A stretch of 21,686 nt of DNA. It comes from a virus. Positions 4,058 through 20,878 of this stretch are shown in pieces; within the stretch, counting starts at the first letter, position 1; every line of letters starts with the position of its first letter. Made by a program: the position numbers and the translations under genes. The stretch is from positions 1 through 21,686 of the IMG/VR virus record IMGVR_UViG_3300046010_013809, one strand, 5' to 3'. Below the pieces are notes generated by a model. It searched no databases. It was not told where the DNA came from and worked only from the letters and a program-made list of their open reading frames with translations.

Positions 4058-4067
4058 TGGAGTCATC

Positions 4068-5087
4068 ATGGATTTTCTCAAACAAATTATTAAAAATTCG
4101 GGCAATGAAGATGCGGCTATCGTTGAAGCAGGTCTTGACGCAGATGTCGCCGGGTTTCTGAATACCGGTTCATTTGCATTCAATGCACTTGTTTCCGGTT
4201 CTCTTTACGGGGGCATTCCCGGCAACAAAATCACTGCATTAGCGGGGGAATCGAGTACAGGAAAGACTTGGTTCGCTCTCAGTCTGGTTGAGCAGTTTTT
4301 AAAAGACAATCCAAAGGGTGCTGTGATCTATTTCGACACAGAGCAAGCAGTCACTACCGAAATGTTCGAAAGTCGCAAGATCGACGGTAATCGAGTTGCC
4401 GTGTTCCCGGTTTCAACCATCGAAAAGTTCAAGCATCAATCCCTGAAGATTGTGGAACAGGTACTTGAACAAAAGGAAGAGGACCGCATTCCGATGATGT
4501 TTGTTCTCGATTCTCTAGGAATGTTGTCAACGGAGAAGGAGGTGACGGATGCAGGAGAGGGTAAGAATGTCAGGGACATGACCAGAGCCCAAGGCATTCG
4601 TTCGACATTTCGTGTCCTTTCCGTCAAGTTGGGAAAGGCAGGCATACCGCTTGTGGTTACGAACCACACCTACAGTGTCGTGGGTGCATATGTGCCCACC
4701 CGCGACATGTCCGGAGGAGAAGGGCTCAAATACTCCGCTTCCACTATTATTTACCTTTCCAAGAAAAAAGACAAGGACACAACGGGGGAAGTAGTCGGAA
4801 ACATCATTCACTGCAAAACCTACAAGAGCCGTTTCACCAAGGAAAATCGAGAAGTTGATGTTCAATTGAACTTTGAGACTGGACTGAATCCTTTCTATGG
4901 TCTTGTGGATATCGCACTAAAGCATGGTGTGTTCAAGAAGGTATCGACTCGTATAGAACTCCCTGATGGCACCACCGCGTTCGAGAAGAACATTAACGAG
5001 AATCCAGAAAAGTATTTTACCGCTGCTGTGATGGAAAAACTAGAAGAAGCTGTGGGTAAGGAGTTCAAATATGGCACAGAAAATTGA
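4068..5087 (+). CDS. uvsX: UvsX, RecA-like strand-exchange recombinase
   Basis: UvsX coats single-stranded DNA and drives recombination-dependent replication and repair in T4-like phages. The 339-residue protein has a RecA-type Walker A GESSTGKT (60-67) and Walker B MMFVLD (143-148), followed by the loop region GGEGLKYSAS typical of RecA/UvsX. It is shorter than T4 UvsX (about 390). ATG 4068 is preferred because GGAG (4059-4062) lies five bases ahead; an in-frame TTG at 4038 overlaps the polymerase and has no such site. The gene keeps the higher GC of the replication module until its last codons, where the AT-rich glycan block begins inside its 3' end. Confidence 0.95.
   Translation: MDFLKQIIKNSGNEDAAIVEAGLDADVAGFLNTGSFAFNALVSGSLYGGIPGNKITALAGESSTGKTWFALSLVEQFLKDNPKGAVIYFDTEQAVTTEMFESRKIDGNRVAVFPVSTIEKFKHQSLKIVEQVLEQKEEDRIPMMFVLDSLGMLSTEKEVTDAGEGKNVRDMTRAQGIRSTFRVLSVKLGKAGIPLVVTNHTYSVVGAYVPTRDMSGGEGLKYSASTIIYLSKKKDKDTTGEVVGNIIHCKTYKSRFTKENREVDVQLNFETGLNPFYGLVDIALKHGVFKKVSTRIELPDGTTAFEKNINENPEKYFTAAVMEKLEEAVGKEFKYGTEN
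5057..5063 (+). promoter_or_regulatory. Shine-Dalgarno site inside the end of uvsX
   Basis: TAAGGAG lies seven bases before ATG 5071, within the last ten codons of uvsX. It shows that the first glycan-block gene is read from the replication transcript by translational coupling, and supports ATG 5071 over the in-frame ATG at 5119. Confidence 0.6.
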
Positions 5088-5712
5088 TATCAGAAAAATT
5101 CAAACATTGTGGATAAGCATGGAAAAAAATAGCATAAATTCAAAATCCACAGAATCTCTTTTATCAGAAAATAAGTTTGAAAATATAAACTGGACAACAG
5201 GAATACGAATCACATCGGATGATGAAAAATGGTTAAATGAGATCAGATGGGGAGGTAAAAGATCACATTATTTTGGATGTGCTTTGGCCCATAAAAAAGC
5301 ATTGGTTGATAATTTAAATCCAAATCCATTAATTGTTTTGGAAGATGATGTGGACATGGAACAAAATTGTAATTTTATTCTAGAAATTCCTGATAACGCA
5401 GATGCAGTTTGGTTGGGAATTTCTCACGCCGGAAGACCTGTTTACGAAAAATTAAATGATGAAATAAGTCAGCTTCATCACATGTTATCCACACATGCAA
5501 TTTTATATCTCACTGAAAAATATAAAAAACATGTAATAGAACAAATTGATGATTGTCTTATGACAAAAGATATGCCGTTTGACATGGGGCTATATACTAA
5601 CCAAACAAATTTTAATGTTTATGTGATGAATAAACCGATTTTTTATCAATCCGACAAGAAAAATAGTGCAAACAAATGGGAAAATTTAACAAGGGTTCCT
5701 TTATATGGATGA
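5071..5712 (+). CDS. GT25-family glycosyltransferase (LPS-type), copy 1
   Basis: This 213-residue soluble protein resembles family GT25 (LPS beta-galactosyltransferase/LgtB type). It opens with a beta-strand IQTLWISMEKN (10-20), as GT25 proteins open with a strand containing a conserved N/S-L-x-R/K element. A central segment ALAHKKALVD (71-80) is followed by LIVLEDDV (87-94), the family's acidic nucleotide-sugar/metal site. The donor and acceptor cannot be read from sequence. It overlaps uvsX by 17 bases and the next gene by 8. It is the first gene of the AT-rich block. The second GT25 gene at 8728 is only distantly similar, so the pair is not a recent duplication. Confidence 0.8.
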   Translation: MAQKIDIRKIQTLWISMEKNSINSKSTESLLSENKFENINWTTGIRITSDDEKWLNEIRWGGKRSHYFGCALAHKKALVDNLNPNPLIVLEDDVDMEQNCNFILEIPDNADAVWLGISHAGRPVYEKLNDEISQLHHMLSTHAILYLTEKYKKHVIEQIDDCLMTKDMPFDMGLYTNQTNFNVYVMNKPIFYQSDKKNSANKWENLTRVPLYG

Positions 5713-6553
5713 ATTAACAATAATAGGTGCTCCTTTTTCGTTAAATCATGGCTCTTCTTGTTCAACGAGAAAACCTAAAAATTTTAGATGGTCAGGAAAT
5801 CCAGATTCTCCAATTTATATTTTGGCAGACAGGGCAATTCCTATGTCTTTGCATTCTTCTGTAGAAGACAAAATTTTGTATGGTTGGATCGTAGAATCAT
5901 TTCAAGTTGTGCCTGATGTTATACTGTTTATAAAAAATAACAAGGAAAAATTATTTGAAAAAATAAAAGGAATTTTTACCTGTAGTGACGAATTGACTCA
6001 AGAAGATTCTAGATTCATTAAAATAGCTCCAGGAAGCAATTTGCCTTGGGGTGATAGAGATGAATGCCAAATTTATAAGAAATCAAAAAATGTATCGATG
6101 TTATCGTCTTCTAAAAATTTTACAAAAGGCCACAGAATAAGATGGGGCATTGCTTCAAATTTAAAAGATAAAATTGATTTATATGGAGGCGTGGCAAATA
6201 GTAAAGTGATAGGAGTTGACAGGGGAACTCATCATAGACCAAAATTAGAAGCTTTACAAGAATACAGGTTTTCTATTACAATAGAAAACGATAATCATCC
6301 AGGATATTACACGGAAAAAATAACAGATTGTTTTGTTACAGGAACAATTCCCTTATATTGGGGAGATCCGAATATATCAAAAATATTTGATCCTAATGGG
6401 ATAATAACAATAAATGATCCCACCAAAATTGATTGGATACTTGATCTTGAAGAAAAGGATTATATGGATAGAACGGATGCAATCAAGAAAAACTTTGAAA
6501 TTGCCATGAACTTGAAAATGGCAGATGAAATGATTTACGAGTACATCAAATGA
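5705..6553 (+). CDS. GT10-like (fucosyltransferase-fold) glycosyltransferase, copy 1
   Basis: The 282-residue protein carries the C-terminal signature of GT10 (alpha-1,3/4-fucosyltransferases): YRFSITIEND (187-196), HPGYYTEKI (198-206) and GTIPLYWGDP (213-222), which form the GDP-sugar site. The N-terminal half (residues 1-180) is not obviously like classical fucosyltransferases. The transferred sugar may be fucose or another GDP-sugar; no fucose pathway genes are visible in the window. It starts inside the end of the preceding gene (ATG 5705) and shares an ATGA with the next. A second GT10 gene lies at 9981 with the same YYTEK core. Confidence 0.82.
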   Translation: MDELTIIGAPFSLNHGSSCSTRKPKNFRWSGNPDSPIYILADRAIPMSLHSSVEDKILYGWIVESFQVVPDVILFIKNNKEKLFEKIKGIFTCSDELTQEDSRFIKIAPGSNLPWGDRDECQIYKKSKNVSMLSSSKNFTKGHRIRWGIASNLKDKIDLYGGVANSKVIGVDRGTHHRPKLEALQEYRFSITIENDNHPGYYTEKITDCFVTGTIPLYWGDPNISKIFDPNGIITINDPTKIDWILDLEEKDYMDRTDAIKKNFEIAMNLKMADEMIYEYIK

Positions 6554-7212
6554 AATTTCTGACTCAATTAAATAGTGGTTGCATAGACATATGCAAGAAC
6601 ATGCTCAAGTCGGCAGAAAAAGTCGGACTAAATTTGGACGATTTTATCATTGCATGTCTGGACAAAAATGCGTATGAGAACATGAAATCATATAAAGGAG
6701 CATTTTTGCATGATGACATGGAATTGACAGAGTATCAAAATTGGACTTTTGATGCTCAAAGCAATTTCAGAAAAATTGTCAAAAATAAATGGAAATTGAT
6801 ATCTGAAATCTATTCACAACACAAGTCGCTCTGCTGGGTGGATACGGATATAGTATTTAAAGAAAATCCGATGCCGTACATCATCGATGATCATTGGATA
6901 TTGTTCCAATGTGACCTTCCTGGATCTATGATTTGCTCGGGATTCATGGTGTTCAATTCTCATGAAAAATGCAAAGAATTGATAAATGAATGTTCACAAA
7001 ATGTGGAAGAAGATGACCAGATATTGATAAACAATCTTTCTGCAAAATACAGAGAAAATATTTCCTTGTTGAATCAGGTGCGTTTTCCAAATGGACATGT
7101 TTACTACAAGGCGGGATACAAAGATAAAGCAGTGATTGTCCACAACAATCACATGGTGGGAATCGAAGAGAAGACAAACAGGTTTAAGCAAGAAGGGCTC
7201 TGGTTTGTATGA
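6550..7212 (+). CDS. GT77-like nucleotide-diphospho-sugar transferase
   Basis: This 220-residue GT-A-fold protein resembles the nucleotide-diphospho-sugar transferase domain (GT77 type). The N-terminus NSGCIDICKNMLKSAEK (8-24) is the typical first strand and helix. LCWVDTDIVF (94-103) holds the DxD motif (Asp98, Asp100) that binds metal and sugar nucleotide, followed by NPMPY as in the family's D-P element. A later EEDDQILIN segment is the usual downstream acidic motif. There is no transmembrane segment, unlike many eukaryotic members. It overlaps both neighbours by 4 bases (ATGA). The gene is less AT-rich than those before it. Confidence 0.78.
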   Translation: MKFLTQLNSGCIDICKNMLKSAEKVGLNLDDFIIACLDKNAYENMKSYKGAFLHDDMELTEYQNWTFDAQSNFRKIVKNKWKLISEIYSQHKSLCWVDTDIVFKENPMPYIIDDHWILFQCDLPGSMICSGFMVFNSHEKCKELINECSQNVEEDDQILINNLSAKYRENISLLNQVRFPNGHVYYKAGYKDKAVIVHNNHMVGIEEKTNRFKQEGLWFV

Positions 7213-8045
7213 TTCACACAAGAGATGATCTTAGACCCAATCCAATGTATCCGGTTTATCCCCCCTACCACAAGGGGGATTATCTAGAAGATTATTTCTA
7301 TAATAAGTTTGCGAAAGAGACCCCCGCAGTTTCAAGAGAGTATATTGCTATAAGTTGGACAACCCTATATTGCCACAACGATAGGTCAAGAATCCAAAAA
7401 TTTCTGGATGATCTTCCCAGAGACAAAAAATATTTTACCGTATCCCAGCACGACGATGCACCTTACGAGAGATTGCCACCAGATACCATATGCTTTTCTG
7501 CTGGGGGAAATGTAAAAGGAAACAATATCATCCCAATTCCTCTTGTATGCTCACCGATCGAAAGGGAATATCAGGAAGAAGAAAGACCCATTCTGGCTTC
7601 GTTTGTAGGCTCAATGACGCATCCGATTCGTGCCAAGATGTTCGAGGCATGCAGGAACGAGGAGGGCATCCTGATGCGAATAAAGGGCTGGACACCCAAA
7701 GTGGATGATGATGAATTTTCTTTTTTCTTTGATGTCACCACCCATAGCAAATTCTGTCTTTGTCCCAGAGGATATGGTCTAAACAGTTTTAGATTGTATG
7801 AAAGCATGCAACTTGGGGCTATTCCCGTGATCATCACAGATGATTTATATTTGCCATGGTCCGACGAACTGAATTGGTCTGACTTTTCCGTCCTGATTTC
7901 GGAAAATGATATTAAAAATATCGTTTCAATATTGAAAGAGCGAGAATCGGAAATGCCAATAATCAAAGACAAAATTCAACAAATTTACAAAAAGTATTTT
8001 ACAATGAATGGGTTTTATGATAGAATAGTTGAAAGATTAAAATGA
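7209..8045 (+). CDS. Exostosin-family (GT47-like) glycosyltransferase
   Basis: The 278-residue protein matches the exostosin (GT47) domain in its C-terminal half: HSKFCLCPRGYG (179-190), FRLYESMQLGAIPVIITDD (194-212), then a Trp-rich segment and SDFSVLISENDI. This is the family's nucleotide-sugar binding region. The eukaryotic members build heparan sulfate or plant wall xyloglucan; phage and bacterial homologues are of unknown specificity. The N-terminal half has no identifiable signal or membrane segment. Its core is the most GC-rich part of the glycan block (line 7621 counts 33 of 60 bases G/C), which suggests separate acquisition. It is coupled by ATGA overlaps on both sides. Confidence 0.82.
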   Translation: MIHTRDDLRPNPMYPVYPPYHKGDYLEDYFYNKFAKETPAVSREYIAISWTTLYCHNDRSRIQKFLDDLPRDKKYFTVSQHDDAPYERLPPDTICFSAGGNVKGNNIIPIPLVCSPIEREYQEEERPILASFVGSMTHPIRAKMFEACRNEEGILMRIKGWTPKVDDDEFSFFFDVTTHSKFCLCPRGYGLNSFRLYESMQLGAIPVIITDDLYLPWSDELNWSDFSVLISENDIKNIVSILKERESEMPIIKDKIQQIYKKYFTMNGFYDRIVERLK

Positions 8046-8731
8046 TTCAATTACCCAAAACAATATATCAAACTTGGATGACTAAACATCTTCCGGTCTC
8101 CATAAAGAGCACGATTGATGATATGTTGAAAATCAACAAAAATTATGAATATCAATTATTTGATGATAAAGACATGTTGAAATACATGGAAGAGAATTGT
8201 GAAACAGATGTGTTTGATTGTTTCAACAAACTCACCATAGGAGCAGCCAAAGCTGATTTGTGGAGATATTCGATTCTTTATGAGCGAGGCGGAATCTACA
8301 TCGATGTGGATTCTCTAATATTTGCAAATCTAGATAGTTTAATATTGAATGACGGTTGCTCTATAATAAGCAGAGAAAAAAATCAAGGAAAATTTGTTCA
8401 ATGGTGCTTGATGTTTACCCCCAAGCATCCGATATTGAAAATTTGCTTGGATTATTGTGTTGAAAATATCAAACAAGATAAAATAAAATCAATTCTAGAA
8501 TTGACCGGACCCGTTGTTTATACAAGAGCAATAAATGCGTTTTTTGGAACCGATATTTATTATGCGACAGACCAAAAGATAAATTCCATAAAAGAACAGA
8601 CAAAAGTCAGATGTCATGGATATGATTATCAAGGTTACGCGCAGTTTCAACATCCAAATAAAAATGAATTGTATATGGATAAACCCCATTGGACAGTAGA
8701 AGAAAATAAACAATTTGGAGATAGAATATGA
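8042..8731 (+). CDS. GT32-like glycosyltransferase (OCH1/TcdA-type DXD sugar-binding region)
   Basis: This 229-residue protein has the hallmark layout of GT32 sugar transferases: LPKTIYQTW (4-12) near the start, then GAAKADLWRYSILYERGGIY (68-87) and the DVD metal site (88-90). These correspond to the conserved sDl.RY..L...GGiY.D.D element of the family. Known members transfer mannose, galactose or glucose to glycans or proteins; specificity cannot be read here. No membrane anchor is present. It overlaps both neighbours by ATGA, placing it firmly in the same message. Confidence 0.9.
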   Translation: MIQLPKTIYQTWMTKHLPVSIKSTIDDMLKINKNYEYQLFDDKDMLKYMEENCETDVFDCFNKLTIGAAKADLWRYSILYERGGIYIDVDSLIFANLDSLILNDGCSIISREKNQGKFVQWCLMFTPKHPILKICLDYCVENIKQDKIKSILELTGPVVYTRAINAFFGTDIYYATDQKINSIKEQTKVRCHGYDYQGYAQFQHPNKNELYMDKPHWTVEENKQFGDRI

Positions 8732-9393
8732 GTATAGCTGTAGATAAGATTTACATCTGTCATTATAAAAAATTGACGGAAAGAAAAGCTGCAGTATCTG
8801 AGCAATTGAACAGATTCAAAATGTCAAATTATTTTTTTGTTGAACATTTCGACAAAGACACATGGGATGTAAATGAAATCAATCAGAAATACCCAAAAAT
8901 AAATCATCCAGAAACAAAAATGACCGAAGGGGAAAAATCTTTGGCACTGAAACATTCCTGGATTGTTCAGGACATGCATGAGAAAAAATATGCTTCTGCT
9001 CTTGTGCTTGAAGATGATGCTGTTTTATGTGATAACTTCCCACAATATTTTGATGCATATATGAACCAACTTCCAAACGATTGGGATATAGGTTGGGTAG
9101 GAAGCTGCTTCAACTTAAAAGAGCCGCAAATACCCGGGGTAAATGTTTATAGAACGAATAGAGGGTCTAGGTGTACTCATGCATTTTGCATAAGTCAACA
9201 ATTTGCTGAAAAAACGGTAAAAGAAATGTCTAATGTAAATTTACCATCAGATCACTTTTATAACTACATTGTCAGGAAGTTTGATATCAACAATTATTGG
9301 TTTCAACCGCCTCTCGCGTTCCAGAGTTTGGAATTTTCTTCGTCACTAAATCAGGACCCAAATCATAAATGGGATCCAAAGGAAATGGGTTAA
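8728..9393 (+). CDS. GT25-family glycosyltransferase, copy 2
   Basis: The 221-residue protein belongs to the GT25 (LPS glycosyltransferase) type. Visible features are the opening strand IYICHYKKLTERK (8-20), the helix EGEKSLALKHSWIV (67-80) corresponding to the family's G..S...SH segment, and ALVLEDDAVL (91-100). The downstream CTHAFCIS segment matches the GT25 ..g..aY.is element. The ATG overlaps the preceding stop (ATGA). A 17-base gap with an AAGGAA site separates it from the methyltransferase-like gene. It is only distantly similar to the GT25 at 5071, so different acceptors are likely. Confidence 0.85.
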   Translation: MSIAVDKIYICHYKKLTERKAAVSEQLNRFKMSNYFFVEHFDKDTWDVNEINQKYPKINHPETKMTEGEKSLALKHSWIVQDMHEKKYASALVLEDDAVLCDNFPQYFDAYMNQLPNDWDIGWVGSCFNLKEPQIPGVNVYRTNRGSRCTHAFCISQQFAEKTVKEMSNVNLPSDHFYNYIVRKFDINNYWFQPPLAFQSLEFSSSLNQDPNHKWDPKEMG

Positions 9394-9410
9394 AATAAAG
9401 GAAAAAAATT

Positions 9411-9980
9411 ATGTCTGAAACAAAAACTACATTATTTGAATCTGTGTACAAAAAATACAAAAGCGATTTATTTTTAGAAACAGGTTCATGGATGGGCGAT
9501 GGAATACAAATGGCCCTTGATTGCAAAACAAAAAAAGTAATAAGCATAGAAATAATGCAACCATATTATACAAATTGTTCAGAACGATTTGAAGCTGAAA
9601 TAAAAAATGGAAATGTCGAGCTACATTTAGGACACAGTGCCGATGTGTTACAAAAAATTCTACCATCTATAACCGACAAAATAACATTTTGGTTGGATGC
9701 CCATTTGGATTTGAGTCATATTCATCCCGATATCAACACGCATTCGCCTTTAATGCACGAACTTGATATTATTCAAAATTTTTCAACCCGTAATGACAAT
9801 ACGATTATGATCGATGATATTAGAATTTTTAAGGCTCGTACTGACTGGGCTATTAGAAATTTTTATGATGTAAAAGGAATAGAAAACAAACTGATGGAGA
9901 TTAATCCCAACTACAAAATAGTGTATGAAGAAGGTTTTAGTGGAAAAACTGATGTATTGGTTGCATTTGTGGAGAATTGA
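9411..9980 (+). CDS. Class I SAM-dependent methyltransferase-like protein
   Basis: This 189-residue Rossmann-like protein has a methyltransferase-type motif I, LFLETGSWMGDG (20-31), an acidic residue ending strand 2 (VISIEIM, Glu47), HLGHSADVL (72-80), and a strand-4 segment FWLDAH (93-98). It most resembles small phage or bacterial methyltransferase-like proteins found in glycan clusters. Strand 1 has ETGSW where ordinary enzymes have D.G.G, so SAM binding is likely but not certain. Methylation of a sugar hydroxyl would fit the neighbours. Start ATG 9411 follows AAGGAA (9398-9403). The next gene begins immediately after its stop. Confidence 0.65.
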   Translation: MSETKTTLFESVYKKYKSDLFLETGSWMGDGIQMALDCKTKKVISIEIMQPYYTNCSERFEAEIKNGNVELHLGHSADVLQKILPSITDKITFWLDAHLDLSHIHPDINTHSPLMHELDIIQNFSTRNDNTIMIDDIRIFKARTDWAIRNFYDVKGIENKLMEINPNYKIVYEEGFSGKTDVLVAFVEN

Positions 9981-10832
9981 ATGAAAGTTTCATTTTGTGA
10001 TTTTTGGGGTGATGTTGACCCTTATAATAACTTTTTTTCTGATTTATTAAAAAGCATGTATCCTGCTTGTGAGATTGTACCTTTCTCAAATGACAATACC
10101 GACATTTTAATCTATTCTTGTTTTGGGTCTGAGCACCACGCTGCCGACAGGAAAAAGGTCAAAAAAATATTCTATACTGGGGAAAACAAACGCCCAAATT
10201 ACGAAGAATGTGATTATAGCCTAACCTTTGATTTTTCCGATTATGAAGGAAGAAACATCCGACTTCCATTGTGGATGCTTCAGATAGATTGGTTCGATAA
10301 AATTGGTTACGGGAATCCAAAATTTGTCATACCACAGGGTGAACTCAGAAATAGTAGATTTTCAGTTCGTCCTAAAACCAAGTTTTGTTCAATAGTATTC
10401 AGCAATCCAATCAGAAATAGAATAGAAATACTTCAAAAACTTTCAAAATATAAACCAATTGAATGTTTCGGAGCACCTTTCGGCAATCATTCAAATGGCG
10501 AAGATATAAAATATGATATCATATCAAATTATAAATTCAACATTTGTTTTGAAAATGGAACTCATCCTGGATATTACACAGAAAAATTGCTTCACGCAAA
10601 GGTTGCCGGTTGCCTTCCCCTATATTGGGCAGACGAGCACTGCAATCACGATTTCAACACCAAATCGTTTATAAACTTAAACGATTTCCCCAGCATGGAT
10701 GCTTTTGTTGAAAAAATAATAGAACTGGACAATAATGATGAGGATTATGAGAAAATACGATCTGAATATTTGTTCGAAGGAAAAGAACCTTCTCTTGAAC
10801 TTCTGAAAGAGCAATTGAGGAAAATATTATGA
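9981..10832 (+). CDS. GT10 fucosyltransferase-like glycosyltransferase, copy 2
   Basis: The 283-residue protein shows both halves of GT10. The N-terminal acceptor domain has KKIFYTGENKRPNYEECDYS (61-80) and RLPLW (94-98). The C-terminal donor domain has NYKFNICFENGTHPGYYTEK (183-202) and AGCLPLYWADE (209-219). It is closer to the classical bacterial alpha-1,3-fucosyltransferases (for example of Helicobacter) than the copy at 5705, because the N-terminal domain is recognisable. The donor is probably a GDP-sugar such as GDP-fucose, presumably from the host or from phage genes outside the window. Its ATG directly follows the previous stop, and it overlaps the next gene by ATGA. Confidence 0.88.
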   Translation: MKVSFCDFWGDVDPYNNFFSDLLKSMYPACEIVPFSNDNTDILIYSCFGSEHHAADRKKVKKIFYTGENKRPNYEECDYSLTFDFSDYEGRNIRLPLWMLQIDWFDKIGYGNPKFVIPQGELRNSRFSVRPKTKFCSIVFSNPIRNRIEILQKLSKYKPIECFGAPFGNHSNGEDIKYDIISNYKFNICFENGTHPGYYTEKLLHAKVAGCLPLYWADEHCNHDFNTKSFINLNDFPSMDAFVEKIIELDNNDEDYEKIRSEYLFEGKEPSLELLKEQLRKIL

Positions 10833-11542: not shown

Positions 11543-11567
11543 AAGCAAAATATATACAAATAAGATT

Positions 11568-11571
11568 GGAG
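11568..11571 (+). promoter_or_regulatory. Shine-Dalgarno site for ribB
   Basis: GGAG lies eight bases ahead of ATG 11580, in the 37-base gap that separates the first glycosyltransferase run from the precursor cassette. The gap is AT-rich (TATATACAAATA at 11551-11562), but I could not support a promoter there. Confidence 0.5.
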
Positions 11572-11579
11572 CAAACAAA

Positions 11580-12200: not shown

Positions 12201-13128
12201 TACGAGAGCATACAACACAATACAAATTTTACCTTTTGGTCTAGTCGAAAAAAGCAGTGCTTCCGATAGGCTATTAGATGAAATCGCGTATTACGACTCG
12301 ATTCCTTCCAATGTAAAACATCTTTTTCCAAGAAAAAAAGATTCTTATGTTGCAAATCAAAAATATCATCTTGTAATTGAATATTATCCGTATAAAAATC
12401 TCGGAGAATATATGCTTTCAGATGAAAAATTTGATTGGATTTCTGTTTTTTCTAACATTAAAGAAGCCATTGGATTGATGTCCAATTATGTTCAAGAAAA
12501 TAAAGATGCAGAAAGCCACGCAATTTCCATGTACATAACTAAAACAAAAAATGAATACGAAAACTTAAAAAAATCCTATTACGACCATGAGTTATTTTCT
12601 GGTGATAAATTAATAATCAATGATAAAGAATATGTTAATTTTGAAAAACTTTGGGATAAAATACAGGCACTTATAGAAAAAAATCTTCTGTTGTATAAAA
12701 GAACAATGATTCATGGAGACATGTGTTTTAGTAATATATTGTATCATCCAAAAATAGGTTCTAGATTTATAGACATGCGTGGTTCCTTTGGAACAAAAGG
12801 AATATATGGTGACAGCATGTATGATTGCGCAAAATTATTACATTCAGTTGAAGGTGGATATGAATTATTCATAAATGACAGTTTTGTAGTTGAAAAAAAG
12901 TCAACAGGAGTGTATAATATTGAATTGTTGGAAAATGAAAACAAACAAGATGCTTTTAATGCATACAAAAAAATATTTAGTGATAAAAACATTGATTTGA
13001 TTCGTCTTGTTGAAGGATTGATATTCGTTGGAATGTGTGCTAGACATTATGATTGTAAAAAGCGTCAAATGATAATGTATTTGACTGGAATAAAAAATTT
13101 AAATGAGGCTATGAAAAATTTATGCTAA
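12184..13128 (+). CDS. Aminoglycoside-phosphotransferase/choline-kinase-fold kinase
   Basis: The 314-residue protein has the C-lobe signature of the APH/choline-kinase superfamily: MIHGDMCFSNIL (175-186), the catalytic loop with Asp179 and Asn184; FIDMRGSFGTKGIYGD (195-210), the metal-binding Asp197; then YDCAKLLHS (213-221). The D-x-R-G...GD...YD.AKL.HS pattern is typical of phosphotransferases in capsule and LPS clusters. It probably phosphorylates a sugar or polyol. I chose ATG 12184, which overlaps ribB by 17 bases; an in-frame TTG at 12163 has no better support. The nucleotidyltransferase starts within its last codons. Confidence 0.82.
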   Translation: MEKTFNTRAYNTIQILPFGLVEKSSASDRLLDEIAYYDSIPSNVKHLFPRKKDSYVANQKYHLVIEYYPYKNLGEYMLSDEKFDWISVFSNIKEAIGLMSNYVQENKDAESHAISMYITKTKNEYENLKKSYYDHELFSGDKLIINDKEYVNFEKLWDKIQALIEKNLLLYKRTMIHGDMCFSNILYHPKIGSRFIDMRGSFGTKGIYGDSMYDCAKLLHSVEGGYELFINDSFVVEKKSTGVYNIELLENENKQDAFNAYKKIFSDKNIDLIRLVEGLIFVGMCARHYDCKKRQMIMYLTGIKNLNEAMKNLC

Positions 13129-13901
13129 ACATAATGATATTGATGGCTGGGAAAGGAAATCGTTTTACCGAAAAGGGATATTGTGTACCAAAACCCATGG
13201 TAATGGTAAACGGTAAAACAATATTGCAATGGACAACAGAATCATGCCCGTTTATAAAACATAATGTGAAAGAGCAAGACAAAACCATTAATTTATGCTT
13301 TGCTGTGTTAAAAGAACATCTAGAAGATGGTGTTGGAGAATTTTTAAAATCCATATACGGAGAAAATATAACAATAATACCATTTGATCAGGTGACAAGG
13401 GGAAATTTGGAAACTGCAAGAATAGCATGTGACAAAATAAAGTTTTCGAATAGCCCAATTTTATTTTTAGATTCTGACAATAAATACGATCATTCAGGAA
13501 TGGATACTTTTTTTAGTTCGCTTCCATCCGACTTGAGCACCATGGCAATTTGTTGTTTTGACGACGAGAACAAAAAACTCCCAAATAAATGGTGTAATGC
13601 CAGAATAAAAAATAATCTAGCAATAGAATTGAGGGAAAAGGACGATAATTGGATAAATTATCCTGCTCTCATTGGAACATTCTATTTTTCAAGAGTGGAT
13701 CAATTTAAAAATTATGCAGATTTTATAATGGATAATCTAGCACCAATAGGACCAGAAAATAAAGAAGAATATTACATGAGTATGTTACCTAAACATCATG
13801 CAAAAATAGGTCAGCCTGTGCATGTTCATATGGTTAATTCTGTAGTTCCTCTTGGAACCCCCGAAGATGTTAATATTTTTATGATGAAAGGGAAAGAATG
13901 A
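13122..13901 (+). CDS. Sugar-phosphate nucleotidyltransferase
   Basis: This 259-residue Rossmann-like enzyme should join a sugar phosphate to an NTP. ILMAGKGNRF (6-15) is the nucleotide-binding signature, VPKPMV (22-27) supplies the conserved Lys, and FLDSDN (115-120) provides the metal-binding acids. The C-terminal VVPLGTPEDV is the usual L-GTPEDV end of this family. It is close in pattern to capsule-cluster nucleotidyltransferases (HddC/GlmU N-domain type); base and sugar cannot be chosen from sequence. It overlaps the kinase by 7 bases and the HAD gene by ATGA, so kinase, nucleotidyltransferase and phosphatase form a tightly coupled trio. Confidence 0.88.
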   Translation: MLNIMILMAGKGNRFTEKGYCVPKPMVMVNGKTILQWTTESCPFIKHNVKEQDKTINLCFAVLKEHLEDGVGEFLKSIYGENITIIPFDQVTRGNLETARIACDKIKFSNSPILFLDSDNKYDHSGMDTFFSSLPSDLSTMAICCFDDENKKLPNKWCNARIKNNLAIELREKDDNWINYPALIGTFYFSRVDQFKNYADFIMDNLAPIGPENKEEYYMSMLPKHHAKIGQPVHVHMVNSVVPLGTPEDVNIFMMKGKE

Positions 13902-14278
13902 TTTTTGCCTTTGATCTTGATAATACAGTATGTGAAAGAAAATTAGGAAACATGACATATTTCGATGTCAATCCTTTTCCAGAAGCAGTAGAAACTATTC
14001 GTTGGTTAAAATCTGAAGGACACACAATCATTCTTCATACAGGAAGACACATGAGAACTTGTGGGGGAAATCAAGGAAAAGTTCTTGCTAAACAAGGAAA
14101 AATACTTTTTGATTGGTTAGAAAAACATCAAATTCCATATGATGAAATTTGGTGGAGTAAACCACACGCAGATCTTTTTATCGATGATGCAGTTCATCGT
14201 CATACCGATTGGAAAACATCAATACAAGCAATTAAAGACCGTCTCATAAAAGGAGACAGAACGGCGGAGAATCCTTAA
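13898..14278 (+). CDS. HAD-superfamily phosphatase, capsule-biosynthesis type
   Basis: The 126-residue protein is a minimal HAD hydrolase. Motif I FDLDNT (5-10) has the nucleophile Asp6 and acid Asp8; motif II is HTGR (47-50); motif III Lys88 and motif IV FIDDAVHR (94-101) complete the active site. There is no cap domain insertion beyond a short loop (KLGNMT...). Small HADs of this pattern sit beside nucleotidyltransferases in capsule clusters and remove a phosphate from a sugar bisphosphate or sugar phosphate. It shares ATGA with the nucleotidyltransferase; the transaldolase follows after two bases. Confidence 0.88.
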   Translation: MIFAFDLDNTVCERKLGNMTYFDVNPFPEAVETIRWLKSEGHTIILHTGRHMRTCGGNQGKVLAKQGKILFDWLEKHQIPYDEIWWSKPHADLFIDDAVHRHTDWKTSIQAIKDRLIKGDRTAENP

Positions 14279-14280
14279 AC

Positions 14281-15150
14281 ATGAATACAACAGAAACTAC
14301 ACTTCCAGCCTTTTTCTTTGACACAGCAGATACCGAAGCAATCAGACGCATATGGGACAAGTTAGGCAAGAAAATATCGTCTAAATCTTGTTTGGGCATA
14401 ACAACAAATCCAAACGCCCTAGCCAAAGTTAACTGTCATACAGTGGCAGAGCTTGAGAAGTTGGTAAAGACCATGAGCGATACCATGGATGAAATCTGTG
14501 GTGGAAATTCGTTAATCTATGTTCAAGTTCCAAATTCTTTTATGAGTCCTTCTGATATAATTAAATGGGCAAATCTTATTTCAAAATTCGATACCGGTAA
14601 AAGTAAAATAGCATTGAAAATACCGCATTTCAGTTATATCTTAAGAGAAACAGATAGACCTATTTTTTGGAATAAAGGTCCATTTGGAGAATTTAAGAAT
14701 TTGTATTTGAATGTTACTGGAATTTCAGACAGCGGAACAATTATAAAAGCATTAAATTATGATAATGTATGTTATGCAAGCATCATTCCCGGTAGAATGG
14801 AAGAAGCAGGAATTGATGCAAATTCACATCTTAAATACCTTTCTGACCAAAAATTCAAAAAACATCAAGCCATAATTACCGGCAGCATGAGAACTATTAA
14901 GGGTCTAAAGGATTCGGTTTATTACAAAACTGTTCCAACGATTGGAACTCGGGTGTGGGATTTGATTGGGCAAGGTGATCTTTGGGAAGAGTTCCCAACA
15001 TATTGGAATAATTTGTATGTTTCGACAGAAACCCCAAATCAGGACTATTGTCCAGAAACCACAGAAAAAAATATTACACTCAGTAAGCAATTTTTTGCTC
15101 AAATGGATTCGTTAGGAAATCAATTGTATGATAATTTTTCTAGTATGTGA
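14281..15150 (+). CDS. Transaldolase / fructose-6-phosphate aldolase family protein
   Basis: This 289-residue protein resembles the small transaldolase (TalC/FSA) family, class I Schiff-base aldolases. FFDTADTEAIRRI (12-24) matches the opening FvDTad.e.Ir; GITTNPNALAK (39-49) is the diagnostic TTNP loop; KIALKIP (109-115) supplies a Lys113 at the position of the catalytic Lys of FSA (VVKVP); YASIIPGRMEEAGID (165-179) matches the Y.aP...R.dd.G element; and TGSMRTIKG (200-208) matches the ..SfRt..q segment. It is about 70 residues longer than TalC, with a divergent C-terminus. Cyanophage TalC acts in the pentose phosphate pathway, but here the neighbours suggest use in building a sugar precursor. 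Confidence 0.85.
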   Translation: MNTTETTLPAFFFDTADTEAIRRIWDKLGKKISSKSCLGITTNPNALAKVNCHTVAELEKLVKTMSDTMDEICGGNSLIYVQVPNSFMSPSDIIKWANLISKFDTGKSKIALKIPHFSYILRETDRPIFWNKGPFGEFKNLYLNVTGISDSGTIIKALNYDNVCYASIIPGRMEEAGIDANSHLKYLSDQKFKKHQAIITGSMRTIKGLKDSVYYKTVPTIGTRVWDLIGQGDLWEEFPTYWNNLYVSTETPNQDYCPETTEKNITLSKQFFAQMDSLGNQLYDNFSSM

Positions 15151-15161
15151 AGGAATTTAAA

Positions 15162-16268
15162 ATGATAAGAAGGACAAATTGTGCATTATGCAAAGAAAAT
15201 TTAGAATTTTTTCATATAATAAAAGATTTTCCTGTCTATATGGGAATCAGAGATAAAGATGAAATTCAATTATATGAAAACATGGAATTTTCCTCATGTT
15301 CAAATTGTGGATGTGTTCAATTAAGTAATCTTATTGATCCAAAAGTTCTTTATAAAAAACCACACAACCCAGCAATAGGAAAAACATGGGAATTGCATAA
15401 TCAAGAGTTGTCAAATTATATCGTTTTTAATAATCCAAAAAATGCTATAGACATTGGCGGAGCAAATATGAAGATAGCAAATGCAGTTTGCGAAAATTCT
15501 TCAATTATATCATATACTGTTTGTGATTTGTCTGCTGGGTTGTATGATGGTAAAACAAATTCAAAAATAAAAATAATTAAGGATTATGTTGAAAATGTTA
15601 AAACAGACAAAAAATATGATGTAGCAATACTTTCCCATACTTTAGAACATTTTTATAATCCAGTTGATATACTGTTAAAAATAAAAAACATGTTAACAGA
15701 TGACGGTGCTATAATTATTTCTGTACCCAATATTGAACAGCAATTAAAGGATGGTTTTTTAAATGCATTAAATTTTGAGCACACATATTATATCAGTCAC
15801 GCTTACATGAACCTTATGTCAAAAATAGCCGGACTGGAAATTGTAGATATCCATGAGTTTTCTCGGCACAATTGTTTTTACAAACTTAAAAAAATAAATG
15901 AACCCAAAGAATTAGTTTATGATAAATTAATAGCTAAAAATGTATACGAAACATTCGTAAAAAATTTAGTGGAAGATGTAATTAACATAAATTCTCAGAT
16001 AAAGGGAAAAAAAGTCTATTGCTTCGGTGGTCATATATTTACTCAAATGCTGATTGCATATGGATTAAATGTAGAAAATTTATTAGGAGTATTAGATAAC
16101 GATAAAAATAAAATAGGAAAATTTCTTTATGGGAGTAATTTGATGATATATAATCCATCTTGTATAAAACAAGAAAAAGCTCCTATTGTTATAGTAAGAA
16201 CTGCCCAATATAAAGATGAAATTATAGAATCAATAAAAATTCATAATGAAAATGTGAGTATAATTTGA
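15162..16268 (+). CDS. Sugar C-methyltransferase-like protein (Zn-binding N-terminus, SAM core, C-terminal domain)
   Basis: The 368-residue protein has three parts. A zinc-binding N-terminus has CALC (7-10) and CSNCGC (46-51). A SAM methyltransferase core has AIDIGGAN (95-102) and LSHTLEHFYNPVDILLKI. A C-terminal Rossmann-like part has KGKKVYCFGGHIFTQML and GVLDNDKNKIGK. This order matches sugar C-methyltransferases such as the TylC3/TcaB9/NovU group, which methylate a ketosugar carbon. Homologues also occur in LPS and capsule clusters, so a branched or C-methylated sugar is possible. I prefer ATG 15162 over GTG 15147 because AAGGA (15150-15154) sits seven bases ahead. It shares TTGA with the next gene. 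Confidence 0.82.
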   Translation: MIRRTNCALCKENLEFFHIIKDFPVYMGIRDKDEIQLYENMEFSSCSNCGCVQLSNLIDPKVLYKKPHNPAIGKTWELHNQELSNYIVFNNPKNAIDIGGANMKIANAVCENSSIISYTVCDLSAGLYDGKTNSKIKIIKDYVENVKTDKKYDVAILSHTLEHFYNPVDILLKIKNMLTDDGAIIISVPNIEQQLKDGFLNALNFEHTYYISHAYMNLMSKIAGLEIVDIHEFSRHNCFYKLKKINEPKELVYDKLIAKNVYETFVKNLVEDVININSQIKGKKVYCFGGHIFTQMLIAYGLNVENLLGVLDNDKNKIGKFLYGSNLMIYNPSCIKQEKAPIVIVRTAQYKDEIIESIKIHNENVSII

Positions 16269-17020
16269 GTAAAAAAAGAATTGCATTATGTTTACATGGC
16301 CAAGCTAGAGGTCTTTGTCTTTTTTCAGAATACTCTCCTTTATCAATAGAATATCAAAATAAAAATCTTATTCATAGAAATGACATCGATGTTGATGTGT
16401 TTTTTCATACATGGGATTATTCTTCCTCTCTGAGTGACTTCAAACAAAAAATTATTGATTTATATCACCCAAAAGCATTTAGTTTTGAAGAAACTTTAAA
16501 TAAAAATTTAGTGGAAAAGTTCAAAGATGGATCAACTCCAGATCAATATGTTTATTCAAATTATTCTCATTATCATAGTTTATATTTTTCGGATTTAAAA
16601 AGAAAAGAATATGAATTCGAAAATAAAATAGAATATGATTGGGTTATATCTACACGATTTGATGTGGCACTTAATGTCAAAATAGATTTTTCTGTATTGG
16701 ATAATACAAAAATATATCAATCAGATTTTAATAAAAGCACATACATGTCAAATGGATTCAGAGTTCAAAATCCTGTTTTTACTATAGGCTCAGGGTCTAA
16801 TATCGAAAAACATTCTTCTATTATTTTGAACATAAGTAAACTAATCAATATTTGTGGTAATATAGATGGACATTCTGTTTTTGGAGCAAATATAAAAAAT
16901 TTAGACTTAATTGATCATATGATGTATTTTGACATGAATCATCCGTTTGCTCCAGATAAATATGGAGCATCGCACCATTCATTTGTAAGAAATGATATAG
17001 AAATTTTTAGGAATTTATAA
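16265..17020 (+). CDS. Putative glycosyltransferase-like protein, unassigned family, TTG start
   Basis: This 251-residue soluble protein is not assignable to a numbered family. It begins with a strand KRIALCLHGQARG (4-16), has DVFFHTWD (44-51), and a later strand YDWVISTRFDVAL (124-136) whose R-F-D resembles the acidic donor site of GT-A enzymes. The gene at 17020 has the same order of motifs. TTG 16265 is taken as the start because it begins just before the conserved first strand, overlaps the previous stop as TTGA, and no in-frame ATG precedes the conserved region. Function as a glycosyltransferase is inferred from the motif layout and neighbours. Confidence 0.65.
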   Translation: MSKKRIALCLHGQARGLCLFSEYSPLSIEYQNKNLIHRNDIDVDVFFHTWDYSSSLSDFKQKIIDLYHPKAFSFEETLNKNLVEKFKDGSTPDQYVYSNYSHYHSLYFSDLKRKEYEFENKIEYDWVISTRFDVALNVKIDFSVLDNTKIYQSDFNKSTYMSNGFRVQNPVFTIGSGSNIEKHSSIILNISKLINICGNIDGHSVFGANIKNLDLIDHMMYFDMNHPFAPDKYGASHHSFVRNDIEIFRNL

Positions 17021-17820
17021 TGGGAAAAATAGCACTTTTATTTTCTGGACATCTGCGTTCTTTGGATATGGCAATAAAAGACTGGAAACGAAAACATCCA
17101 GAATTTTACGATTCAAATATTACTGATGTGTTTTGTCATACATGGAATGGAGAAAATAAAACAGCGTGGGAAAATATAAATAAAGTTAAAATACTCACAT
17201 CTGATGTTTATAAAATAGAAAAATTAATTGAAAACATGAATGTGGTTTCTTATGATGTTCAGGATTATGATTCTAGTCCAGTTGGAGAAATAACAAAGCA
17301 AAATAATTATATCGGAGCAAATTTTTCCATAGCTCATGGAACAAAAAGAGTGTATGAACTTTTTAGAGAATACGCAGACAAAACCGAAATAAATTATGAT
17401 ATAGTGATTAAAACTAGAGTAGATACTTTTTTGGGAAAATTTCCAGAAAATCCTTACGGGAATTGGTATCAAGACCACGAAACTCCAGATCCTCTTCCCA
17501 TAGAATATCTCAAATCCAAGGTAAAAGAATCTGATGAGAAAGTGATGATTCCTTGGTTTGAAAATTGTGACCATGGGGGTCTCACAGATCAAATTTTAAT
17601 CGGTAACAAGAATTCTATTAAAGATATATGCTGCCAATATTATGAATGGTTAAAAGAAAACTACATGAGAATAGGACATTGGCACATAGAAACAAATCAC
17701 AAAAAATTTGCAGATGATTATAAACTTAACATAGAAAGATTTAATTATCATTTTGGAATTATAAGAACTGGTCTTGGTTTTACAAAAAACAACACAAACT
17801 GGCTTGGATTTGCCATATAA
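17020..17820 (+). CDS. Putative glycosyltransferase-like protein, related to its upstream neighbour
   Basis: This 266-residue protein has the same architecture as the gene before it: first strand KIALLFSGHLRS (3-14), VFCHTWNG (37-44) and YDIVIKTRVDTFLG (126-139), with RVD in place of RFD. A following Trp/Asp-rich segment (WYQDHETPD) and a C-terminal DQILIG resemble acceptor and donor elements of GT-A enzymes. Overall identity to the neighbour looks low, so any duplication is old or the two were acquired separately. The ATG shares its first base with the previous stop and follows AGGA (17009-17012). Eleven bases separate it from the next gene. Confidence 0.65.
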   Translation: MGKIALLFSGHLRSLDMAIKDWKRKHPEFYDSNITDVFCHTWNGENKTAWENINKVKILTSDVYKIEKLIENMNVVSYDVQDYDSSPVGEITKQNNYIGANFSIAHGTKRVYELFREYADKTEINYDIVIKTRVDTFLGKFPENPYGNWYQDHETPDPLPIEYLKSKVKESDEKVMIPWFENCDHGGLTDQILIGNKNSIKDICCQYYEWLKENYMRIGHWHIETNHKKFADDYKLNIERFNYHFGIIRTGLGFTKNNTNWLGFAI

Positions 17821-17831
17821 TAGGGAGAAAA

Positions 17832-18488
17832 ATGAAAAATACAATAAAACTATATCAACAAATAGCAAAACACAATGTAAAAACAGTCTTAGATATTGGT
17901 GCAAATATTGGACAATTTTCAACAGAAATAAAGTCTATTTTTCCTGAAATGTTTGTCCTTTGCATTGAACCAAACACCGATTGTGAACCATATTTAAGAC
18001 AGCTCGGATTAAATTATATTATTTCTTGTCCATCAGATTCCAAAAGTATTAAAAAATTTTATAGAATGAAGAATGACTCTACGGGCACAGGACATTCTTT
18101 ATATAAAGAAAATACACACTGCTATGAGGGAGATAATTTGCTTGTTCAAGAAATACAAACCGATACACTAGATTCTATTTTAGAAAAATCTTCTTTTGCA
18201 AATTTTTTGTTTGATTTTATAAAATTAGACACACAAGGAAGTGAATTGGACATTTTAAAAAGTTGTCCAAAAACCTTATCTAATGCAAAACTAGTGTTGG
18301 CAGAAACAGATATTTCAAATTACAATGAAGGATGTCCTTCACAAAGAGATGTAGTCGAATTTATGGACAAAAATGGATTTGTTGTAGATTGCGTAATAGA
18401 AAATCAAATCACTCCCAATAATACACTAATTCAGCAAGATTTATTGTTCATAAAATTGGAAAAATATAATGAAAATTGCATTTCATGA
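17832..18488 (+). CDS. FkbM-family methyltransferase
   Basis: The 218-residue SAM methyltransferase shows motif I VLDIGANIGQFS (19-30), the strand-2 acid CIEPN (44-48) and the FkbM signature TDTLDSIL (110-117) with FDFIKLDTQGSELDIL (127-142). FkbM enzymes O-methylate sugars or polyketides. In phage and bacterial glycan clusters they commonly cap a hexose or deoxyhexose hydroxyl. The start follows a GGGAGA site in the 11-base gap. It overlaps the GT4 gene by 20 bases. Confidence 0.92.
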   Translation: MKNTIKLYQQIAKHNVKTVLDIGANIGQFSTEIKSIFPEMFVLCIEPNTDCEPYLRQLGLNYIISCPSDSKSIKKFYRMKNDSTGTGHSLYKENTHCYEGDNLLVQEIQTDTLDSILEKSSFANFLFDFIKLDTQGSELDILKSCPKTLSNAKLVLAETDISNYNEGCPSQRDVVEFMDKNGFVVDCVIENQITPNNTLIQQDLLFIKLEKYNENCIS

Positions 18489-19428
18489 TAATGCTTTGTC
18501 TTTATTCGGTACTACAGTAGCCATTTATAATTGGGCATATTGGGCAAGAGAATTATTGCAAATTGAGCCAATAATATTATACAATTCCAGACATAGTGCA
18601 AACAATGAAACAGTGATCGAAAAGTTTAAAAACACTTTCAATGGAAATGTGTTTCATTATGATCATGTCTCTCAAATAGACAATATCCTTCTAGACAATG
18701 CTTGTGATTATTTTTTCATGGAAAAGGGTGGAAGACCGGATGGTGTAATATCAACGGTTTGCAAAAATCTTGTAAACGCTATTGCGATCTGTTCCATGAA
18801 TGATGTCCATGGAGATGTATTTGCTACAGGTTCTCGTTGGCTCTCTTCTTTGGTTGATCACAAAATACCTTATGTTCCTTACATAGTTCACCTTCCAGCA
18901 GGGGAAGAAAATCTAAGAAAAGAATTGAATATACCTGTTGATGCTTTTGTGTTCGGTAGGAATGGGGGTTTTGAGACATTCGATATTCCTTTCGTAAAAG
19001 AAGCGATCAAGGAAATCATAGACAAAAGATCGGACATTTGGTTTGTGTTTCAATACACAGAAAGATTCATAGATCATGATAGAGTGATATTCCTTCCCGG
19101 CTCCACAGATGCCAATTACAAGGTAAAGTTCATAAACACATGCGATGCAATGCTGCACGCAAGGACTGTAGGAGAATCTTTTGGGATGGCTTGTGGTGAG
19201 TTTTCAATAAGAAATAAACCAGTTATAACTTGGTTCGGTTCCAGAGAAAGAAGCCATATCGACATACTCCAAGAAAAAGGCATTTATTACAATACCAAAG
19301 AAGATATTTCAAATATACTTTCCAATATATCTCACGCCGACATAAATGGAAAAGATTGGAATGCATACAGAGACTACGAGCCAAGTAAAGTGATGGAAAA
19401 ATTCAAAGAAGTGTACCTAAAAAACTAA
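18469..19428 (+). CDS. GT4-like (GT-B fold) glycosyltransferase
   Basis: This 319-residue protein resembles GT4 retaining glycosyltransferases. The donor half contains FVFGRNGGFET (160-170), the strand after the domain linker, and CDAMLHARTVGESFGMACGE (225-244), which holds the E-x7-E type element. It then continues RNKPVITW (248-255). The N-terminal acceptor half (LSLFGTTVAIYNWAYWA, 10-26) resembles the G.....l...L opening of the family. Composition is less AT-rich than the preceding genes (line 19081 counts 25 of 60 G/C). It is the last gene of the block, ending 45 bases before the helicase. Confidence 0.85.
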   Translation: MKIAFHDNALSLFGTTVAIYNWAYWARELLQIEPIILYNSRHSANNETVIEKFKNTFNGNVFHYDHVSQIDNILLDNACDYFFMEKGGRPDGVISTVCKNLVNAIAICSMNDVHGDVFATGSRWLSSLVDHKIPYVPYIVHLPAGEENLRKELNIPVDAFVFGRNGGFETFDIPFVKEAIKEIIDKRSDIWFVFQYTERFIDHDRVIFLPGSTDANYKVKFINTCDAMLHARTVGESFGMACGEFSIRNKPVITWFGSRERSHIDILQEKGIYYNTKEDISNILSNISHADINGKDWNAYRDYEPSKVMEKFKEVYLKN

Positions 19429-19439
19429 AAACGATTGTG

Positions 19440-19467
19440 TTGACTTTTTGATGCTTCTTGGTACAAT
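19440..19467 (+). promoter_or_regulatory. Sigma70-type extended -10 promoter for helicase gp41, predicted leaderless start
   Basis: TTGACT (19440-19445), a 16-base spacer and TACAAT (19462-19467) with TG at 19459-19460 (TGgTACAAT) form a near-consensus extended -10 promoter. The expected transcription start falls at 19474, the A of the helicase ATG. Only GAAAGA separates the -10 from the ATG, and no convincing Shine-Dalgarno site is present. The geometry repeats that of the polymerase promoter base for base. Confidence 0.72.
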
Positions 19468-19473
19468 GAAAGA

Positions 19474-20874: not shown

Positions 20875-20878
20875 TATT

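Follow-up and report, generated by a model that had tools for sequence, protein, structure and literature searches.

Bacterial O-antigen and capsule loci hold a glycan cassette between conserved genes, and this cassette is exchanged whole. Among phages, large clusters of lipopolysaccharide (LPS) and sugar genes lie near hli03 or phoH in the T4-like cyanophages P-SSM2, S-SSM7 and S-SM2 (PMC3037559), and the pelagimyophages carry a hypervariable host recognition cluster of glycosyltransferases and tail fibres between VrlC and gp14, its divergence being called gradual and not a complete replacement (PMC7029224). Near-identical regions beside regions in which essentially all genes differ are also described for marine phages; the under-recruiting islands reach 4.6 kb, and the text contains no word starting with 'glycosyl' (PMC3909814). 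Here we describe a block of 19 genes (g1-g19) between the recombinase gene uvsX and the replicative helicase gene gp41 in the IMG/VR virus record IMGVR_UViG_3300046010_013809, a genome fragment of 21,686 bases that was analysed whole and is called the window below. Like the cyanophage clusters, it is a large set of sugar genes in a T4-like phage of aquatic bacteria; unlike them, it occupies the uvsX-gp41 site and is replaced as a whole between backbones of 91% identity. Nor does it have the VrlC-gp14 position of the pelagimyophage cluster. An earlier interpretation made from the nucleotide sequence of the window alone (the sequence-only reading) had considered such a block unusual; that it lacks precedent is not supported, big glycan clusters having already been published at other sites in T4-like aquatic phages (PMC3037559, PMC7029224).

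The window derives from an uncultured T4-like phage of aquatic bacteria. A single strand encodes, in order, a dUTPase, a small conserved open reading frame (ORF), a DNA polymerase, uvsX, g1-g19, gp41 and an epimerase still open at the end of the record. The T4-type polymerase, uvsX and gp41 are all present, as expected of kin of the Kyanoviridae, and the uvsX protein is 56-59% identical to those of the 30 isolate records listed, with HTVC008M at the top, followed by Melnitz and cyanophages. The two flanking genes had been correctly identified from the sequence alone, and all 19 same-strand ORFs were found where they had been placed.

The interval between uvsX and gp41 is almost certainly an exchange locus for glycan cassettes. 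In 106 of 112 loci holding both genes, mostly more distant from the window and including near-duplicates and four isolate phages, the gap measures 11 bases to 1.5 kb (below 70 bases in 46), intervals reaching beyond the 10-kb flank being under-counted. Long intervals are typical of the window's own group, in which the 14 complete ones from other contigs span 5.5-13.7 kb; contig G001 is a repeat of the window, and G006 apparently one of G005. Up to position 5068, and from 19469 onwards, contig G002 shares 91.0% DNA identity with the window; blastn detects no similarity in between. The flanks of G003 match at 82% and 81% and its interior shows one 60-base match, in g2, and G004 displays the same replacement pattern with flanks at 75% and 77%. 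In all three contigs the similarity borders lie within 20 bases of gene ends, and the positions at which similarity stops and resumes (Table 1) bear out the sharp edges claimed for the block. When each of the 14 other intervals is taken in turn, at most three of the window's 19 genes have relatives there, none at 70% identity or more. Even a fragment whose uvsX is 98% identical carries g1 and g2 at just 73% and 72%. The two block borders have only matches of 7 bases in common.

What replaces the block is again a glycan gene set. The G002 cassette comprises 17 other ORFs, mostly glycan genes, including GT2, GT11, GT25, GT47 and group-1 glycosyltransferases, epimerases and an aminotransferase, together with a GHMP kinase, a SIS protein, a cytidylyltransferase-like protein and a transaldolase. 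Across 118 ORFs from nine more contigs (G017, G018, G019 and G021 being left out, and products under 80 aa dropped from all tallies), the 25 of 56 families shown include FkbM methyltransferases (11), epimerases (8), nucleotidyltransferases (7 + 4), GT7 (6), GT2 (6) and GT10 (4). The flanks, represented by 52 of 107 ORFs chosen by hand to thin repeated core genes, gave one glycan-type match, Anp1, among the 25 of 32 families shown. Conserved flanks thus enclose wholly different glycan genes, as in an O-antigen-like exchange, and the cargo hotspot predicted by the sequence-only reading, with contents differing wholesale among relatives, is what the relatives display.

Neither an assembly artefact nor a mobile element accounts for the block. 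Over 21,683 bases the window matches a separate 76,436-base contig (IMGVR 3300046007_012472, G001) with 100.000% identity; a common source or related samples may lie behind the two assemblies, but relatives independently show the same sharp joins, and a chimera is therefore rejected. No mobile-element family was found among the 19 window proteins in Pfam and PHROG scans. The GC contrast of 60% against 25% drawn from the sequence alone compared two selected 60-base lines, the first equalling the highest of all; the values are real and the contrast persists by gene (uvsX 0.456, gp41 0.448, block 0.327). In G005 (locus L181) the GC of the cassette, 0.48-0.56, is close to that of the core, 0.54-0.56, so that low GC is no constant mark of these cassettes.

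The cassette also moves between genomic sites. Contig G009 is a distant relative (uvsX 62%, gp41 53%, polymerase 49% identity) in which uvsX and gp41 are adjacent, and it carries g5, g6, g8, g10-g17, g19 and an epimerase in the same order at another site, ending about 8 kb upstream of the polymerase gene, with identities to the window as high as 88% for RibB, 92% for the HAD protein and 86% for the transaldolase. Adjacent border genes with the gene set elsewhere, which the sequence-only reading had named as an arrangement that would speak against it if seen in close relatives, were thus encountered in distant ones only. In G010, g3-g6, g8 and g10-g19 follow in order at 42-86%. The isolated cyanophage S-SKS1 (HQ633071), which infects Synechococcus WH7803, carries diverged homologues of 13 cassette genes (g3, g4, g6, g8, g10-g17, g19) and of the epimerase in a cluster at about 34-49 kb, and differs from the window in a nucleotidyltransferase-RibB fusion, GDP-fucose genes, the genomic site and the lack of collagen-like genes. 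The window's own epimerase, located after gp41, is 305 aa long in G001, and 18 other contigs whose sequence continues beyond gp41 lack it there. It is 48% and 54% identical to the epimerases that end the S-SKS1 and G009 cassettes, and 49% to one inside the G002 cassette. Since the S-SKS1 and G009 cassettes end in a related epimerase, it is best read as part of the cassette; the block limits first given describe the interval correctly, while the cargo appears to run on beyond gp41.

The 19 ORFs fill the interval almost without gaps: neighbouring ORFs overlap or abut at 16 of the 21 junctions between uvsX and the epimerase, and 99% of positions 5088-19473 are coding (Table 1). Glycan synthesis is very likely the function of the block, and a multi-step glycan encoded by the phage remains the best reading of its contents. 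The tally of eleven glycosyltransferases made from the sequence alone comes down to ten, six of them above Pfam cut-offs (g2, g3, g4, g5, g6, g8), g1 weak, and g16, g17 and g19 assigned by fold or homology; g9 drops out. Two of the three proposed methyltransferases are clear (g15, g18) and g7 is weak, whereas the five precursor enzymes (g10-g14) are all present by Pfam, PHROG, TIGR or profile matches. PDB sequence searches gave no match for g19 and a best E of 0.27 for g16/g17, for which reason folds were predicted for g16 and g19; the g19 model retrieves MshA, PimA and BshA with Foldseek, and also GT-B-fold epimerases, at E 1e-8. The g14 protein itself has no Pfam match. The weak PF11649 match of g7 (E 0.0014) is to the C-terminal part of a T4 neck-protein model, and a 46% relative of g7 is the final cassette gene of L181.

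Table 1. Features of the window, and collagen-like genes of the overlapping contig G001, with the matches behind each assignment
Feature	Coordinates	Strand	Evidence
DNA polymerase (gp43), left core flank	1541..4057	+	phrog_262 E 0
uvsX recombinase, left border	4038..5087	+	phrog_97 E 1e-85; blastn similarity to relatives stops at 5068-5078
g1, GT25-like glycosyltransferase, weak	5071..5712	+	PF01755 E 0.008, below cut-off; phrog_24091 1.6e-31, phrog_2835 8.6e-4
g2, GT10 (fucosyltransferase family)	5705..6553	+	PF00852 2.5e-9
g3, nucleotide-diphospho-sugar transferase	6550..7212	+	PF03407 1.4e-16; 56% to S-SKS1
g4, exostosin-like GT47	7209..8045	+	PF03016 4.3e-29
g5, DXD glycosyltransferase, presumably GT32-like	8042..8731	+	PF04488 8.8e-15
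g6, GT25	8728..9393	+	PF01755 1.8e-15
g7, possible methyltransferase, weak	9411..9980	+	PF02390 0.0075 and PF11649 0.0014, both below cut-off
g8, GT10 with FucT N-domain	9981..10832	+	PF18025 4e-21, PF00852 1e-19
g9, no family	10829..11542	+	no Pfam or PHROG match at E 0.01
g10, RibB (DHBP synthase), start of five-gene unit	11580..12200	+	PF00926 2.8e-69; PDB 3h07 2e-48
g11, APH/choline-kinase-like kinase	12163..13128	+	phrog_21938 7e-45
g12, sugar-phosphate nucleotidyltransferase	13122..13901	+	phrog_3980 9e-29; NTP_transferase 0.007, below cut-off
g13, HAD phosphatase	13898..14278	+	TIGR01689 2e-18, below cut-off; phrog_1238
g14, transaldolase-family protein, end of five-gene unit	14281..15150	+	phrog_440 4e-13; profile to PDB transaldolase 3r8r 3e-7
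g15, sugar C-methyltransferase-like	15147..16268	+	PF13489 5e-10, PF08484 1e-6
g16, predicted GT-A fold, glycosyltransferase-like	16265..17020	+	model pLDDT 79.5; Foldseek GT6-type enzymes E 8e-7, TM ~0.45
g17, homologue of g16	17020..17820	+	common phrog_13607; alignment
g18, FkbM methyltransferase	17832..18488	+	PF05050 1e-11; TIGR01444 above cut-off
g19, predicted GT-B fold, glycosyltransferase-like	18469..19428	+	model pLDDT 82.1; 64% to S-SKS1
gp41 replicative helicase, right border	19474..20874	+	phrog_19 1.5e-121; blastn similarity resumes at 19454-19474
NAD-dependent sugar epimerase/dehydratase, cargo past gp41	20858..21686	+	PF01370 9e-58; open at window end
Collagen-like proteins of 635, 893 and 857 aa (G001)	L166:583-2490, 2881-5562, 12397-14970	-	

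Within the cassette, RibB (g10), an APH-like kinase (g11), a nucleotidyltransferase (g12), a HAD protein (g13) and a transaldolase-family protein (g14) constitute a conserved unit, which the sequence-only reading did not single out, and we are confident that they form one pathway. In three overlapping sets of bait loci, which include near-identical contigs, all five genes accompany the transaldolase in 18 of 18 viral loci and RibB in 33 of 44 (four including the transaldolase in 2 more). Among the best 80 of 111 loci retrieved with the kinase, the 43 close relatives were counted apart: 35 have all five genes and 40 have RibB and the transaldolase, whereas RibB, nucleotidyltransferase and transaldolase are all missing from the 37 weaker ones, 12 of which have a HAD gene. 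The unit is kept down to about 38% identity. The window's g10 and g14 agree with the RibB and transaldolase families both in overall match and in key residues, the RibB catalytic motifs being invariant in 14 sequences, the kinase HGD..N..D in 13, and, in the transaldolase, TTNP and Lys113, the Schiff-base lysine of this family, in 13. S-SKS1 has all five genes, two of them in its nucleotidyltransferase-RibB fusion, and a planctomycete metagenome-assembled genome (MAG; L215:6239-10810) encodes the unit with an 817-residue RibB-nucleotidyltransferase whose C-terminal part matches the kinase, downstream of split transketolase genes. The idea that g14 might be a common bacterial gene was discarded: a pattern-limited scan of 84,980 species genomes (31 candidate stretches) yielded one relative, and among 392 genomes of the MAG's phylum the only one with a relative was the same genome.

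RibB is normally a riboflavin enzyme, other phage transaldolases exist (phrog_440), and RibB stands without the other four genes in 9 of the 44 viral RibB loci; RibB and transaldolase might thus serve flavin or pentose-phosphate metabolism and lie beside glycan genes by chance. The linkage of the five genes from three baits and the RibB-nucleotidyltransferase fusions in S-SKS1 and, with an added kinase part, in the planctomycete MAG make such a coincidence highly improbable. Instead, the unit, which is found mainly in phages, looks like an undescribed way of making an activated sugar, and a literature search on RibB with phage sugar pathways, most subscription papers lying outside it, gave nothing to the point. 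In the synthesis of ADP-heptose, a sugar phosphate is made, phosphorylated at C1, relieved of its other phosphate and coupled to a nucleotide. By the same logic, g10-g14 would make an activated sugar from ribulose 5-phosphate via 3,4-dihydroxy-2-butanone 4-phosphate (DHBP): the four-carbon methyl ketone formed by RibB and a small sugar would be joined by the transaldolase-like aldolase into a chain-extended or C-methyl-branched aldose phosphate, which would then gain a phosphate at C1, undergo dephosphorylation and be linked to a nucleotide. The aldol addition involving DHBP is a guess.

Taken as a whole, the locus is best explained, with about an even chance of being right, as a glycotype locus, in which a five-enzyme sugar enters a methylated oligosaccharide carried by a virion surface protein. 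The glycan cassette would be replaced as a unit, most simply through recombination in the flanking core replication genes, and the oligosaccharide would be built stepwise in the host cytoplasm by some ten glycosyltransferases, all of them soluble, together with two to three methyltransferases, so that swapping the cassette would give the particle a different sugar coat. A crude hydrophobicity scan of 127 cassette ORFs (window and eight contigs) picked out none with two or more strongly hydrophobic segments, and hence no hint of a flippase, a polymerase or an exporter. This fits cytoplasmic assembly on a soluble acceptor, and it separates this viral locus from bacterial O-antigen and capsule loci.

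A virion protein as acceptor is, in our judgement, a balanced proposition, and the leading candidates would be collagen-like fibres with Gly-Pro-Thr repeats encoded upstream, which may be glycosylated on Thr. Contig G001 encodes three collagen-like proteins upstream of the polymerase, outside the window, one of the genes ending about 610 bases before the window start. In two of them Thr is the Y residue of 89 out of 104 triplets and of 39 out of 47; Gly-Pro-Thr, the repeat of BclA-type collagen, itself accounts for 52 and 20 triplets. These genes lie near those for a 553-aa RCC1-repeat protein and a laminin-G-like protein. One study reports that the Gly-Pro-Thr repeats of Clostridioides difficile BclA3 are O-glycosylated on Thr by an adjacently encoded transferase (PMC7157674). 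G001 resembles the BclA and BclA3 spore glycoproteins in having such repeats with a glycosyltransferase gene nearby, and differs in being a phage contig whose collagen-like proteins are putative glycoproteins. The gene in question, a GT2-TPR gene between the collagen-like genes, has a 62% relative in G009, two genes past the terminal epimerase of the cassette. It was rejected as a cassette marker, relatives being found near dut/pol in other contigs. Thr-type collagen occurs in four of five contigs with a cassette at uvsX-gp41, in neither of two with a cassette elsewhere, and in one of six without a cassette.

Several observations weigh against this explanation or parts of it. The hydrophobicity scan does not set the cassettes apart, since none of 77 flank ORFs has two such segments either, and the D1 control returned 3 segments, presumably fewer than it has. 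The contrast in Thr-type collagen is small, comes from partial contigs, is confounded by kinship and depends on a threshold of 0.6 set after the values had been seen, and relatives of the GT2-TPR gene occur away from cassettes as well. Of the short-gap loci, 13 of 35 have a collagen-like gene of some type downstream of gp41 and 1 of 32 has one upstream of uvsX; the long-gap loci in the same comparison, one in one half and two in the other and all without collagen, are too few to decide between the two groups. Because such genes are also common near gp41 without a cassette, we regard Gly-Pro-Thr collagen in particular as a tentative acceptor at best. The complete genome of S-SKS1 encodes a related cassette but no collagen-like protein, and the collagen-like protein of G009 is not Thr-rich; collagen is therefore not the acceptor everywhere, and the acceptor must differ in S-SKS1 or in all of these phages. 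The joint proposal, that an undescribed route to a nucleotide-activated sugar through a C4 ketone and an aldolase supplies a switchable O-glycan on collagen-like fibres and defines single-locus 'serotypes', appears rather doubtful when all its parts are required together.

Enzymes acting on host LPS can be soluble too: LPS extension at the inner face does not require membrane-bound glycosyltransferases, and bacteria use members of the GT10, GT25 and GT47 families for their surface glycans as well. The cassette might thus alter host LPS or capsule during infection and block superinfection by competing phages, acting on a lipid-linked or LPS-core acceptor with export by host proteins. This is the published view of the glycosyltransferases of pelagimyophages, a group that includes HTVC008M, the top isolate by uvsX (PMC7029224). 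We consider it unlikely though deserving of attention: the crude scan of 127 cassette ORFs revealed no candidate for a flippase, a polymerase or an exporter, and a fast lytic cycle would leave little time for remodelling the surface.

A third destination for the sugars would be the phage's own DNA, in the manner of the arabinosyl- or glucosyl-hydroxymethylcytosine by which RB69 and T4 counter restriction. The RB69 module (ORF055c, ORF053_052c, ORF051c) adjoins gp43, whose counterpart in the window is the polymerase gene of the left flank, and resembles the five-gene unit: the kinase and HAD families (phrog_21938, phrog_1238) are strongly matched by ORF052c and ORF051c, whereas the nucleotidyltransferase link is weak (phrog_3980, matched by ORF053c at 1e-6). 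ORF053_052c is proposed to act with an arabinose-5-phosphate isomerase in activating arabinose for RB69 DNA, and ORF051c is unnamed in the main text (PMC6024577). ORF051c (L195:4567-4953) is labelled a phosphoheptose isomerase; it has phrog_1238 in common with g13, which matches HAD phosphatase models, and the label appears doubtful. DNA methylases do occur among the window's kin, with PF01555 DNA methylases in 3 of 52 flank ORFs and a HhaI-type methylase annotated near the polymerase of the isolate Melnitz-3, and PF00145 (C5-cytosine DNA methyltransferase) is found in the distant relatives G029 (2559-3473) and G030 (51429-52346). In G029 and G030 uvsX and gp41 are adjacent. Against a DNA target, the searched contigs of the window's own group, which are partial, hold no PF00145 match, and the PF00303 thymidylate-synthase-fold hydroxymethylase was found in none of 12 records, including the complete HTVC008M and S-SKS1 and the 76-kb partial G001, whose missing part may still encode one, the RB69 control giving 2 matches. 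A PF12851 (TET/JBP) search, in which the control itself gave no match, speaks neither for nor against it. None of the 19 window proteins matches the arabinose-5-phosphate isomerase (SIS), in whose place stands RibB, an enzyme that presumably acts on the same substrate. The window thus differs from the RB69 module in having RibB for the isomerase, an added transaldolase, no hydroxymethylase found and many more glycosyltransferases, its ten transferases being far more than one base needs. DNA is hence a poorer acceptor candidate, and an improbable one. Finally, the absence of any coherent product, with genes of host origin retained as ballast or auxiliary genes for the sake of genome size, as their low GC, like that of foreign cargo, and the 'stuffer DNA' idea raised for the cyanophage LPS clusters (PMC3037559) might suggest, is scarcely credible when all ORFs are intact and nearly gap-free, the five-gene unit is kept to about 38% identity with invariant catalytic residues, and the other sampled cassettes are again glycan sets.

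Glycan clusters, and islands of different genes in otherwise near-identical phages, are of a kind already known. New, as far as our searches go, are the uvsX-gp41 site, the whole replacement of a glycan cassette between near-identical backbones, and the five-gene unit. The five-gene unit places the RB69 arabinose module, whose chemistry is left open in its description (PMC6024577), within a broader family that starts from another reaction, and it poses a biochemical question, namely what the activated sugar derived from the riboflavin precursor DHBP is and why RibB nearly always has a transaldolase beside it. If the glycotype explanation is true, the locus would be a phage counterpart of the bacterial serotype loci, in which the sugar coat is swapped whole while the replication machinery stays nearly identical; this would bear on how phages escape decoys and defences that recognise the particle, and on how sugar genes travel.

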